Shown piece by piece: positions 35,765 through 63,601 of a DNA stretch of 64,000 nt. The DNA is taken from assembly GCA_028554795.2 (NCBI GenBank), contig CM068825.1, forward strand, positions 91,730,951 through 91,794,950. Direction: 5' to 3'. Numbering within the stretch: position 1 is the stretch's first letter; every line of letters begins with the position of its first letter. The notes beneath the pieces were generated by a model that saw nothing but the letters and a program-made list of their open reading frames with translations, searched no databases and was not told the origin of the DNA. The DNA comes from Sinohyriopsis cumingii. Lineage: Eukaryota; Mollusca; Bivalvia; Unionida; Unionidae. A program made the position numbers and the translations under genes.

Positions 35765-35839
35765 ATGAGTACGCCCGAGAGTGAAGAGCATGGACAAGGA
35801 GGAGACGGTGACACCTCAACGGCTACTGTGACCCCGCCG
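35765..35839 (+). CDS. Coding exon 1 of a split acidic protein gene
   Basis: ATG in a good context (A at -3, GAGACCATGA) opens a 75-nt, 25-codon exon encoding MSTPESEEHG... and ending ...TVTPP. It is followed at once by a strong donor, CCG|GTAAGAAG, leaving phase 0. The next exon I can support is at 61508, 25.7 kb away, and begins in phase 0, so the two join without a break. The encoded segment is rich in Ser, Thr, Glu, Asp and Gly, suggesting a disordered N-terminus; no signal peptide or membrane segment. I chose this ATG because it is the first in the exon and sits in a good context. Product not recognised. The exon is too short to be certain on its own; support comes from ATG context, donor, phase and matching composition with exon 2. 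Confidence 0.68.
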
Positions 35840-36006
35840 GTAAGAAGTATATATATATATAATTAGACATAGTAACGAGGTAACCACAATGTGTATACAA
35901 ACAGGTTGTTTACCATAAGCGCCAAATCGCAAATTAGCGATCAAGAAGAGAGAGAGTGATTGCACCTTCACAATACAGTTAACGTAAGCTGTATTTATGA
36001 AGAAGG

Positions 36007-36034
36007 AAAAAAAAAAAAAAAAAAAAAAAAAAAC
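36007..36034. repeat. Poly-A tract
   Basis: About 26 consecutive A after GAAGGAAA; no retroposon body recognised upstream. Confidence 0.9.
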
Positions 36035-36303
36035 AGCCTGACATTGTGATTGTGTTTAGCTGTAAATTGTGACTAAATACTAAATAACTATGTATATGTG
36101 TATATGTGTTATAAGTTTATGTTCGCCTGACAGGTATGTTGATACTATAAGACGTGGGTGCCATGGCACGTATGTACATACATGACTTGGCATATACGAA
36201 GTAATATGGAAATGTGTTGGTAGGTAACTGTATTGGTAGGTTGATGTATCTGTCAGTTGTTAGATGAACAAGTCTGCAAGAAGCAATTATAGTCTGTTTG
36301 ATA

Positions 36304-36434
36304 CAGTGGCGTACTAAGGGTGTACGGCGCCTTGGGCAACGATGTTGGCCTAAAAGGGTCTTGGCACCGCAAGACCTATGGCGCCCGGGGCAACGGCTCT
36401 GTCCGCCAATCCCCTCTCCGTTAGTACGCCACTG
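36304..36434. mobile_element. hAT-type MITE, family M3
   Basis: 131 bp with perfect 14-bp terminal inverted repeats CAGTGGCGTACTAA / TTAGTACGCCACTG and a perfect 8-bp target-site duplication GTTTGATA at 36296-36303 and 36435-36442. CAGTGGCG is a characteristic hAT-type terminus. The interior is GC-rich (GGCGCCTTGGGCAAC, GGCGCCCGGGGCAAC) with no transposase. The minus-strand frame over it is an artefact. Confidence 0.95.
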
Positions 36435-36655
36435 GTTTGATACACCTAGATTGGCCGTACAAGTGAAATAGCACAAAAATTACGAGATAAATCTAACAAT
36501 TTTTCACGCTAATTTTGAATTATATTAAAGTATGAAATCGGACCGAGGCATTGTCTGTTTTTCTTCTCTTTTTCTTTGCTATCATCTTTTTATACGCATT
36601 TATCACAAATGGTTGTCCATACAAAAACGAACAGTTGATAAGAAGGGCTGCAATG

Positions 36656-37490
36656 TGTTAAGACTTTATGGTCTTAAACTAAGTTACAGAACAAAGCGAG
36701 AACCAACAGGTTTTATAACATTCAAAAACATATTTATTTCCCAAGAATACAAAGTGAAAATTTAAAATGGATTTACACTAATTTGAATTAAAGCCCAAGT
36801 AGTCATAAACGTTCAATTAAAAGTCCCAATGTATAAAATTCCAATTGAATTCCAGTAGTATTCCAAACAAATTTCAATATCGAATGTTGCTGTACCTGTT
36901 GCCTCGAATGTGCCAGTGGCATGGAATGTGGCGGTATGCTAACAGTCTTTTGATGTATCACAATAATATAATCTAAAATGGTAATGACTGAATTCACTAT
37001 AATTCCAAATGAATCCAAGAATACTACTGAGCGCTTTATAATTCCAGTGAATAATAGTTGAATAAATAAATAAATCCAAATTAAAAACTGAACACATCAA
37101 TAAGACTGATTCTGCTTCAGTTGTTAAATCAAGAATGGGTAATCCCAATGTAAACAAGATTATATACCCCTCAACTTGATCTTGATCACAATTGCCATTT
37201 TCTGAAAATACTCTGTGTACTTAATGGAAGTTTCTAAGGTCAGAGTCAAGACTTCAATCAAATTGAAGTAAACATGTTTACTACTAATAATGATCTGACT
37301 ATTTAACCCACAATGATAGAGAAATATTCACTATGTATTATGTTGTTTACAAAATAAATGTCACTAGTCAGGTACACCATTAACTTAACTTTGGACAAGG
37401 TCTGGTACAAAATACAGATGTACATAGCACATAAACATCAAGAAAATCCAACAAATAATACAAATTAAATATGCATAATGCATAATATGC
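36656..37490. mobile_element. Dispersed LTR-like repeat, copy B
   Basis: Starts TGTTAAGACTTTATGGTCTT and keeps the block order of copy A (11506): CAAGAATACAAA, ATGGAATGTGGCGGTATGCTAACAGTCTT, GAGCGCTTTATAATTCCAGTGAATAATA, AATAAATAAATCCAAATTAAAAACTGAACAC, AATACAAATTAAATAT. The right end is approximate. No primer-binding site or coding remnant flanks it, so a solo LTR or other non-coding repeat. Confidence 0.5.
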
Positions 37491-38010
37491 AGAATGTAGA
37501 TGAAGCGTGCATTGCTTAAGGCCATCACAAATGCCTCATGCACCTTTTGAAACGTTAACCATTGGTTGCAGCCAATCTCATATGAACTGTGCGCTATTAC
37601 ATCTGTTAAATAACGCCGGATTAGCTTATCCCAATTAAATGCTTAATTTTGAACTACTGAAGTATTAAGCAAATTTTTAAACCTTACTTTAAGATAATAT
37701 GAAGAAAAAAGAGTCCATCCTACTAACAGAGTTGACTGACCATTGTGTGGAAAGTAAGATCTGAAAAATATGAAATTTCAAGGCCAGTCAGAAGGCACCA
37801 AAAGAGACTATAGGATGGGACATGCACATATGACAAAATATAAATGTAACAGTATACATACAAATTCGTTTTGTTCAAGACTGCACAGTTTATTATTAAG
37901 TTGCCTGGCTTTAACTGTTTTGCCTCTGCTTGATGTTATTATTCATTTTTTATTTCCATGTTCAAATTCTTGACTGGTTCCTTGCTGCATTAAGACAAAT
38001 TTACAGTTCT
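37491..38010. other. Intronic sequence, nothing identified
   Basis: Short TGCATAATGCATAATATGC stretch at the left edge; otherwise no feature. Confidence 0.5.
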
Positions 38011-61507: not shown

Positions 61508-62003
61508 ACATCTCACTACAGTAATTTGGAATCAGTTCCCGAGGAGACCGATACCGAGGCAGTGGACGATTTTGGCCAGAATGAAGGCATCGTTGGAGAG
61601 GACTACCCTGTTATTCCTGTGCTGGAAGAAAGCCAAGAGGATGACGATGGCCGTAAGCCCCAGTCTGGACGTCTACCAACACTTCATTCACGCGCCCGGC
61701 TGATTCGGACCCCAGCTAAAAAAGACAGATCAGAACCAGACTCGGTGTCACCCCGATACAGCGACACTGGGTCTCAGCAGCAAATCTCAGACGAGATGCA
61801 ACTAACGCAAGGAAACAACAACATTCTTATAACGGAGCTAAGTGACCACGAGGAAATAACGGAGATTCTTGAACGCGAAGGCTTTGATGATGATAGAAAT
61901 AATTTAGAACAAACTCTTCAAACAGTCACTATTGAAACTGTTGACCAGCAAGACAAAGAAGCTGAGGAGCAGGAGGAATGGGACACGGACCTTGAGATTG
62001 ATG
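61508..62003 (+). CDS. Coding exon 2 of the split acidic protein gene
   Basis: A 496-nt exon between a strong acceptor (T-rich tract, CTCACAG) and donor GATG|GTAAGG. It is open throughout (165 codons plus one base) in the phase left by exon 1, and far less AT-rich than its flanks. The protein (residues about 26-190) begins TSHYSNLESVPEETDTEAVD. It is very acidic with many Glu, Asp, Gln and Ser. It carries a basic patch LHSRARLIRTPAKK near residues 80-95 and ends EEQEEWDTDLEID. No membrane segment or catalytic motif is visible; it looks largely disordered. Residues 56-71 (EDYPVIPVLEESQEDD) recall the IPxIPDLEExQEED block of ciliary IFT43, but the conserved region that follows in IFT43 is not seen, so I give no symbol. 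The donor phase (1) fits the microexon at 63593. A weaker donor at 62009 is also possible. Confidence 0.85.
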
Positions 62004-62320
62004 GTAAGGTACATCAGAATATACAGTTGTTGGTGACGACCGCCCAGTCATATATTTCTTACTCATATATACTGCTTTCTGATGGTTGTGGCCAAAATCT
62101 GATAGGTTTTAGACGTAGAATTGTTTAACAAGTGTTTGGAATTTAAGATGGCAAATAGGATGTATTGAGTGTTTAGATATATACTTGCAATGTAAATGCA
62201 ACTTTCGCGGATATTATACTATTTGTTCTATCAAGTCATTGAATAAAAAACATATACAAAAGATTACATGAAATATTTGGTAATACAAATATTTCCCACT
62301 TAATACCAGCTATAGATTCT

Positions 62321-62400
62321 ATGTATGTATGTATGTATGTATGTATGTATGTATGTATGTATGTATGTATCTATCTATCTATCTATCTATCTATCTATCA
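62321..62400. repeat. (TATG)n then (CTAT)n microsatellite
   Basis: About 12 TATG units then about 8 CTAT units. Confidence 0.96.
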
Positions 62401-62490
62401 TGTAACTAATGGTGGGTTACAGGGAATTTAGGAAACTCGCAAAATGCATTTTGTTTTATGCTGTCATTATAAGATAAAGGGAAACTAATT

Positions 62491-62955
62491 AGACCAGTCT
62501 GTGAAGTAAGATTTAGGCAGAGTACCATAATATATGATGACTCGAAACTAAGTAGACCGGTCTATGAAGCTTGATTCAGGCTGAATACCAGAATATAAGA
62601 TGAGGCGAAACTAAGTAGACCGATCTCTGAAGTAACATTGAGGCTGGGTACCAGAATGTAAGATGCGAAATTTAGTAGACGGGTCTATGAAGTAAGATTC
62701 AGGCTGAGTACAACAATATAAGATGCGAAACCAAGTAGACCGGTCTATGAAGCTTGATTCAGTCTGAGTACCAGAATATAAGATGAGGCGAAACTAAAGT
62801 AGACTTATCTTTGAAGTAAGATTAAGGCTGGTGACCAGAATGTAAGATGCGAAACATAAGTAGACCGGTCTATTCAGGCTGAGTACCAGAATGTAAAATG
62901 CGAACTAAGTTGACCGGTCTATGAAGCAAGATTCAGGCTGAGTACAGGAACATAA
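62491..62955. repeat. ~63-bp minisatellite, about 8 copies
   Basis: AGACCGGTCTATGAAG-type unit starts at 62491, 62554, 62617, 62677, 62737, 62801, 62862 and about 62911. Steps are 63, 63, 60, 60, 64, 61, 49. The unit contains GATTCAGGCTGAGTACCAGA and ATAAGATG(AGGC)GAAACTAAGT. Confidence 0.93.
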
Positions 62956-63592
62956 AGTGTTTTGTCAAAGATTCACCAAACAAATAAAATGCGAAAAGCA
63001 TGCGTGTTGACAAGAAATACTAGTACTAACATAAAAGGTGGATAATTAAGTAATTTATCAATGTAAAGAAAATGTATCATGTGACCATAAGCAGTTAAAT
63101 TTACATATACGCTAATATAAGGGAAAGAGTCACCGACGTTTAAACATAATAACCCCAAAAAGGGAAGTGTCGTTGACAAGGTTTGGACAATGTTACATAT
63201 ACACTAATCCTGATATTATGTAAAAGAGCAGAAACTTTTTTCAACACCGACGGTGCTATTACGCTTGTCAATAAGAAACAAAGAGAAAGAAAGAAAGAAG
63301 AAAGAACGAATGTTGTGGATTTGGGACAGAATCTGATTATTTATATATTTAATACTGAAACTAATTTCAGTTGTAGTTTCTTGAGTTCGTAAACGATCAA
63401 TGAAACTTGGGATAATTTCATATAAATTTCATATAAATTCTACAGATTGGAAAATTTCTGATGCAAGATGTTTCTCATAATTCCATTCTTTTAATTACAT
63501 AATTAACTAGCTTCCAGGGTGAAGGTCTATACACTGATCTGTAGTAATCTACTTTTTATTTCGTATTACCGCCTTGCTTTTGTCAGTGGCAG

Positions 63593-63601
63593 ACAACGAT
63601 G
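63593..63601 (+). CDS. Probable 9-nt (or 15-nt) microexon 3
   Basis: ACAACGATG lies between an acceptor (TTGCTTTTGTCAGTGGCAG) and a perfect donor GTAAGT. Exon 2 leaves one base (G), so the join reads G|AC AAC GAT G = Asp-Asn-Asp and again leaves phase 1. An upstream acceptor TGTCAG six bases earlier would give a 15-nt exon (Val-Ala-Asp-Asn-Asp), also in phase. The acidic residues match the exon 2 C-terminus. Microexons are easy to imagine in random sequence; support is the full donor, the pyrimidine tract, phase and composition. The gene would continue beyond the window. Confidence 0.45.

Follow-up and report, generated by a model that had tools for sequence, protein, structure and literature searches.

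Two exons in a 64,000-nucleotide stretch of Sinohyriopsis cumingii DNA, termed the window, very probably open an ordinary animal gene of the LRRC74A type, which has 14 coding exons and an unusually long first intron. The window sits within a 171 Mb contig of the 2.9 Gb genome. A sequence-only reading had described one split gene of two exons whose product could not be named. Both exons stand, but they form only the 5′ end of a gene modeled with 14 coding exons. Reading on into the downstream exons allows the product to be recognized as LRRC74A-type, with matches to Pfam LRR_6 and to the bovine sperm axoneme chain 9fqr_Km. Most of the first 190 residues belong to the N-terminal tail of this protein, which is acidic and probably disordered.

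Exons and introns in the window

The features of the gene that lie in the window are listed in Table 1. Exon 2 is entered in phase 0 through an acceptor reading ...TTTTTCTCACAG and is left through a GTAAGG donor at 62004. Scored with splice matrices of generic frequencies, the acceptor ranks third among 3270 AG and the donor 12th among 3849 GT dinucleotides of the + strand. Among the internal-exon candidates of both strands exon 2 comes first, with a joint splice score of 13.2 compared with 10.8 for the next (20 open candidates on the + strand and 9 on the − strand lie above the threshold). The strongest three-base periodicity in the window also falls on exon 2, as only two of 3426 comparison windows poor in microsatellite equal or exceed its asymmetry and both overlap the exon. 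Open-frame length is weaker evidence, with 239 codons reached by 1 of 100 order-2 Markov sequences.

Table 1. Features of the LRRC74A-type gene model in the window (position 1 is the first base of the window)
Feature	Position	Strand	Description
Exon 1	35765-35839	+	ATG and 24 codons, start of the coding sequence; phase 0 exit; GTAAGA donor at 35840
Intron 1	35840-61507	+	25,668 bp, GT-AG ends; tandem arrays, SINE copies, MITE-like element
Exon 2	61508-62003	+	496 nt (165 codons and 1 base); acidic N-terminal tail, DTDLEI-like segment at the end
Intron 2	62004-63586	+	1,583 bp; 63-bp tandem array at 62481-62945
Exon 3	63587-63601	+	15-nt microexon, phase 1 to 1, encoding VADND
Intron 3 (start)	63602-64000	+	5,110 bp intron that leaves the window and ends before exon 4

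Up to E 10, Pfam gives no match for exons 1 and 2 taken together or for exon 2 alone, and PDB gives none for exon 2 as the query. Comparison of exon 2 with viral contigs gives five pattern matches, none confirmed, and comparison with phages gives none. IFT43 was considered early as the identity of exons 1 and 2, from an apparent likeness of one short segment, and was dropped on the Pfam (exons 1 and 2) and PDB (exon 2) results.

The ATG of exon 1 lies in good context and is preceded by an in-frame stop, and the donor of this exon ranks fifth among the 3849 GT of the + strand. In the 61.5 kb upstream of exon 2, exon 1 is first of 36 first-exon candidates, scoring 25.34 compared with 3.80 for the runner-up, and none of 60 Markov sequences matches this score. 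The score includes a coding term built on the composition of exon 2 and so tests likeness to exon 2; with the term removed exon 1 still ranks first of the 36 (9.67 compared with 5.39). The codon count, ATG context, donor and phase given for exon 1 in the sequence-only reading are as described, as are the 165 codons, phase 0 entry and strong acceptor of exon 2. The exons also connect in phase 0 and are alike in their acidic composition. The support for exon 1 is statistical, since residues 1-169 show no homology in anything searched (Pfam and PDB for exons 1 and 2, and also viral contigs and phages for exon 2). It is conceivable that the LRRC74A-type gene begins at exon 2, exon 1 being a chance frame, an alternative promoter or an exon of another gene, as exon 1 is a mere 25 codons, lacks homology and stands 25.7 kb away. 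The lead of exon 1 over the other 35 candidates, the failure of any Markov sequence to equal it, its donor rank and its agreement with exon 2 in phase and composition make this unlikely. X-box (RFX) sites with one mismatch number nine in the 64 kb, with four at 35872-36394, two of these within the MITE-like element.

With exon 1 taken as the first coding exon, the length of intron 1 agrees with the 25.7 kb claimed for it. Its description as repeat-filled is quantified in part, for tandem repeats, which make up 3,755 bp (14.6%). An intron of this length would be removed by ordinary splicing, with no special mechanism required. The exon 3 acceptor ranks 34th of 3270 and the donor sixth of 3849, giving the third-best joint score on the + strand. 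A second in-frame acceptor would reduce exon 3 to 9 nt (63593-63601), and skipping of the exon would also preserve the frame. The last base of exon 3 coincides with the end point of the sequence-only reading, the text of which does not mention this exon. An acceptor at 63730, which would end the gene in a short stop-containing exon, was set aside because the homologous exon 4 comes next in the correct phase.

The gene appears to be the only one in the window, as had been proposed, in that exon-candidate scans of both strands yield no second convincing exon chain. Rfam at gathering thresholds gives no matches in the window. The Pfam scan covers 34001-64000 in the three + frames, with stops replaced by X, and the − strand and 1-34000 are covered by the exon-candidate scans. 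Pfam yields no family at cut-off, and two weak matches (MscS_porin, 0.0091, and Tropomyosin, 0.024) fall in a 42-bp tandem array near 53,470. The 10 kb that follow, read in the three + frames, contain one weak LRR_6 match (0.0085) at exon 5.

The gene model beyond the window

Exon 2 terminates at a donor and not at a stop, and the model extends ~32 kb beyond the window. In full it comprises 14 coding exons from ATG to stop at contig positions 91766715-91826960 (60,246 bp) encoding 636 residues. Exon 4 begins at 68712 in continued numbering (contig position 91799662), and exons 4-14 follow on the same chromosome in frame, with GT-AG introns and compatible phases, ending in a TAA stop at 96008-96010 with an AATAAA at 96199. 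The sequence itself displays the chain of exons, its frame, the repeats and the homology, and from these we infer splicing as drawn, including the junction of exons 1 and 2.

Several exons depart from the output of the chain finder. Five were removed by judgement (67030-67083, 77132-77224, 78861-78908, 84250-84305 and 90536-90653) because they are unlike the relative and the phases close without them, and four past the stop were also removed (100845-100865, 103484-103521, 106836-106879 and 109293-109377). Exon 11 was lengthened from 87032-87052 to 86957-87052 and exon 12 from 92100-92278 to 92003-92278 after homologous residues were seen, and exon 9 came from the repeat pattern instead of the chain finder. 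Acceptor strength is low for some of the exons (58th percentile for exon 11 and 79th for exon 9), and homology support is absent for exon 14. The numerous tandem repeats around the gene might suggest a dead or dying locus in which exons persist after the gene has gone out of use; against this, the 14 exons stay open in a single frame over 636 codons, the introns are GT-AG, and there is a plausible stop and poly-A signal, which makes the idea extremely improbable.

The protein product and its relatives

The 636-residue product matches Pfam LRR_6 at 1.9e-30 in six stretches, corresponding to leucine-rich repeats of the ribonuclease-inhibitor (RI) type. An acidic tail encoded by exons 1-3 occupies residues 1-195, about a quarter of which are Asp or Glu, and is probably disordered. 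The short family segment DTDLEID lies near its end and is followed by GVVPISYFLRH, HGLGP and the repeats at about 234-490, with a putative EF-hand-like region C-terminal to these. The top PDB match is 9fqr_Km from the bovine sperm axoneme (226.3 bits, 6.3e-66, residues 170-572), with the next chain at 121 bits, and the alignment takes in the end of exon 2. With an earlier, incomplete product the chain scored 215.5 bits compared with 129 for the next; with exon 12 completed and exon 14 included, the score rose to 226.3 and the matched end moved from 492 to 572. The PDB label of 9fqr_Km is 'Tubulin alpha-3 chain'; we infer its identity as LRRC74A instead from its repeat sequence and PMC11779644.

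Compared with this presumed bovine LRRC74A, the repeat block aligns throughout with a single one-residue gap, and the mussel sequence shares GVVP-SYF-R and HGLGP and has TDLEID in place of TDLEIE. Differences occur in the acidic N-terminal tail, which is longer here (the match starts at 170 compared with 35 in the bovine protein), in a few extra residues around exon 3, and in the C-terminal part, which is loosely similar and gapped. The EF-hand_7 match in this part (0.0046, 17.7 bits) is under the Pfam cut-off of 30, a PDB search restricted to the last 113 residues gives 12 chains with a best E of 0.44, and the whole-protein alignment to 9fqr_Km ends at residue 572 of 636.

Other proteins of the same repeat class are also detected. 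LRRC34 (9fqr_MA and 8j07_w) shares RI-type repeats and a place in axonemal structures, but reaches only 93 and 87 bits, across the repeats, and matches to the ribonuclease inhibitor, RanGAP and NLR repeat domains are confined to the repeats at ≤76 bits. That the product is another RI-type protein (LRRC34, DRC5/TCTE1, LRRC74B or an unnamed one) might be argued from these further matches, 121 bits for the next chain and 93 for LRRC34. Yet 9fqr_Km is ahead by >100 bits in a comparison set that does not contain LRRC74B, and the product of exons 1-4, almost repeat-free, matches it at 2.7e-9, in an alignment that reaches into the last residues of exon 2, with the sole other match up to E 10 at 0.4. 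The putative EF-hand-like C-terminal part, which would suit LRRC74A over LRRC74B, also counts against such an assignment, which has little probability compared with LRRC74A.

Predicted role in the axoneme

The bovine sperm 96-nm repeat is described by PDB entry 9FQR, and the paper on this structure newly assigns LRRC74A as a distal-lobe protein of the nexin-dynein regulatory complex (N-DRC) (PMC11779644). In the worm Urechis, LRRC74A heads the hub-gene list of module 10 of a ciliogenesis transcriptome (PMC10380512). By analogy with the bovine relative, the LRRC74A-type product would sit in the N-DRC of sperm flagella, and perhaps of other motile cilia, where its curved repeat scaffold would hold partners between adjacent microtubule doublets. 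In the same lobe ANKEF1 offers a basic surface to the neighboring doublet (PMC11779644). The acidic tail might be a lineage-specific mimic of glutamylated tubulin tails that competes for this surface and is tuned by the optional VADND exon, a highly speculative and very improbable proposal.

The analysis names an ordinary gene that had been picked out of raw sequence despite an intron of 25.7 kb; gene finders with an intron-length cap could lose its first exon. It also contributes an invertebrate-looking model of the gene for a protein that was assigned to the axoneme only recently.

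Exons 1 and 2 and the extent of the gene

Exons 1 and 2, which lie 25.7 kb apart, match the sequence exactly at the coordinates assigned by the sequence-only reading, and both exceed chance expectation. Exon 1 is composed of an ATG and 24 further codons; a stop precedes it in the same frame, and its donor is GTAAGA. Exon 2 (496 nt) is entered in phase 0 and reaches a GTAAGG donor one base into a codon. Splice sites were scored using generic matrices with frequencies from general knowledge. Among the 3849 GT of the plus strand the donors of exons 1, 3 and 2 rank 5, 6 and 12, and the exon 2 acceptor ranks 3 of 3270 AG. 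The joint score of exon 2 (13.2) is the highest for internal-exon candidates on either strand (20 over threshold on plus, 9 on minus; runner-up 10.8). Exon 2 also has the strongest three-base asymmetry in the window: of 3426 equal-sized, microsatellite-poor segments, the 2 that match or exceed it both overlap exon 2. The open frame alone is weaker evidence because a run of at least 239 codons occurred in 1 of 100 order-2 Markov sequences. Exon 1 heads the 36 first-exon candidates 5' of exon 2 in the window (25.3 compared with 3.8 for the next), a score that also measures likeness to exon 2 as its coding term was trained there; none of 60 Markov sequences held an equal candidate, and with the coding term removed exon 1 still ranks first (9.67 versus 5.39).

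The two exons stand as first read; as a two-exon gene the reading is incomplete. Exon 2 ends at a donor, and therefore the coding sequence continues, into a 15-nt exon 3 that had been overlooked, its final base being the end coordinate (63601) of the earlier gene. Exon 3 is entered and left in phase 1, so both inclusion and skipping would keep the frame, and an alternative in-frame acceptor 6 bases further in would give a 9-nt form. In the source genome (2.90 Gb, 1138 contigs; window G000:C2:91730951-91794950) a search with the exon 2 DNA returned at least one match, itself. Exons were chained through the 200 kb that follow the window on its chromosome, with some exons of the automatic chain dropped or extended with homology in view. 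In the resulting 14-exon model all introns are GT-AG with compatible phases, and the frame closes at a TAA (96008-96010) with an AATAAA downstream at 96199. The splice sites of the 14 exons vary widely in score, some being very strong and others weak, and E11 and E9 have the weakest acceptors.

Exons of the gene model and other elements, in window numbering continued past its end
Feature	Position	Strand	Next intron (bp)	Remarks
Exon 1	35765-35839	+	25668	
Exon 2	61508-62003	+	1583	
Exon 3	63587-63601	+	5110	15 nt; acceptor rank 34/3270 AG; joint score third among plus strand candidates
E4	68712-68884	+	529	predicted, exon chaining
E5	69414-69521	+	1583	predicted, exon chaining
E6	71105-71198	+	461	predicted, exon chaining
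E7	71660-71709	+	3079	predicted, exon chaining
E8	74789-74870	+	4750	predicted, exon chaining
E9	79621-79706	+	6300	predicted; acceptor at 79th percentile, supported by homology instead
E10	86007-86201	+	755	predicted, exon chaining
E11	86957-87052	+	4950	predicted; weakest acceptor (58th percentile), supported by homology instead
E12	92003-92278	+	2042	predicted, exon chaining
E13	94321-94406	+	1525	predicted, exon chaining
E14	95932-96010	+		predicted; outside homology support
Minisatellite arrays, 42-bp period	16107-16378, 39886-39973, 48585-48971, 51114-51218, 53319-53780			
tRNA-derived SINE family	16667-17003, 23646-23984, 54368-54688, 58264-58582			copies ~80-92% alike
MITE-like element	36304-36435			inverted ends CAGTGGCGTACTAA ... 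TTAGTACGCCACTG; ~465 bp 3' of exon 1
Interspersed element, two copies	19546-19738 (-), 57020-57214 (+)			97% alike over 156 bp; open frame HTIGYTWRPVLMVEEEPGKT...
63-bp tandem array	62481-62945			intron 2, between exons 2 and 3

Intron 1 and the repeats of the window

Intron 1 has about four times the length of the gene's second-longest intron, and 3,755 bp of it (14.6%) consist of tandem repeats. Its length requires no special mechanism; 5'-proximal introns tend to be longer as a general property, according to an excerpt of PMC7222433. The five minisatellite arrays share their period with differing consensus units, and the last of them, when translated, weakly matches MscS_porin and Tropomyosin. 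ARAGORN places a tRNA-Pro at 54613-54685 within one SINE copy, and the plus-strand copy of the interspersed element has the second-best exon-like score of the window when the coding term is included. The window holds nine X-box (RFX)-like sites with one mismatch; four fall at 35872-36394, just 3' of exon 1, and two of these four lie within the MITE-like element. This cluster is of interest for a cilia gene and may be chance.

Homology of the predicted product to a probable LRRC74A chain

The product, which could not be named from its first two exons, can be called LRRC74A-type from the downstream exons, and is most likely LRRC74A itself rather than a close paralogue. Its repeats match Pfam LRR_6 (1.9e-30), and a search of the 636 residues against all PDB chains gives a single outstanding relative, 9fqr_Km (473 residues) from the bovine sperm axoneme structure, at 226 bits and 6.3e-66; the next chain scores 121 bits and LRRC34 93 bits. 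The alignment pairs product residues 170-572 with chain residues 35-425 and starts within exon 2, so homology ties exon 2 to the downstream exons. The almost repeat-free product of exons 1-4 also matches 9fqr_Km (2.7e-9), the other of the two matches up to E 10 being at 0.4. The C-terminal region has a weak EF-hand-pair likeness (0.0046, below the Pfam cut-off) and alone gives weak PDB matches only, the best of the 12 chains at E 10 or below having an E-value of 0.44.

The PDB label of 9fqr_Km, "Tubulin alpha-3 chain," is at odds with its leucine-rich-repeat sequence. We strongly infer that the chain is LRRC74A, from this repeat sequence and the structure paper, with the features of human LRRC74A as background. 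Excerpts of that paper (PMC11779644) give PDB 9FQR as the 96-nm repeat of bovine sperm and place LRRC74A, as a new assignment, in the distal lobe of the nexin-dynein regulatory complex. Elsewhere, LRRC74A heads the hub-gene list of module 10 in a Urechis ciliogenesis transcriptome (excerpt of PMC10380512), and an axonemal protein with limited LRRC74A homology is listed in an excerpt of an MBO2/FAP58 study (PMC11151096).

Acidic tail and proposed role

The N-terminal tail (residues 1-195) contains 26.7% Asp plus Glu and 6.7% Lys plus Arg. Its mean hydropathy of 0.370 lies under the charge-hydropathy boundary of 0.485, and disorder is therefore predicted, whereas the repeat block (residues 222-490) falls on the folded side (0.496 versus 0.424). 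The tail is longer than in bovine 9fqr_Km, the match beginning at residue 170 compared with 35. The exon structure, open frame, repeats and homology are seen in the sequence; the repeat block would be expected to fold into the curved scaffold typical of its repeat class. By analogy with cattle, the protein would be a component of the nexin-dynein regulatory complex in sperm flagella and perhaps in other motile cilia.
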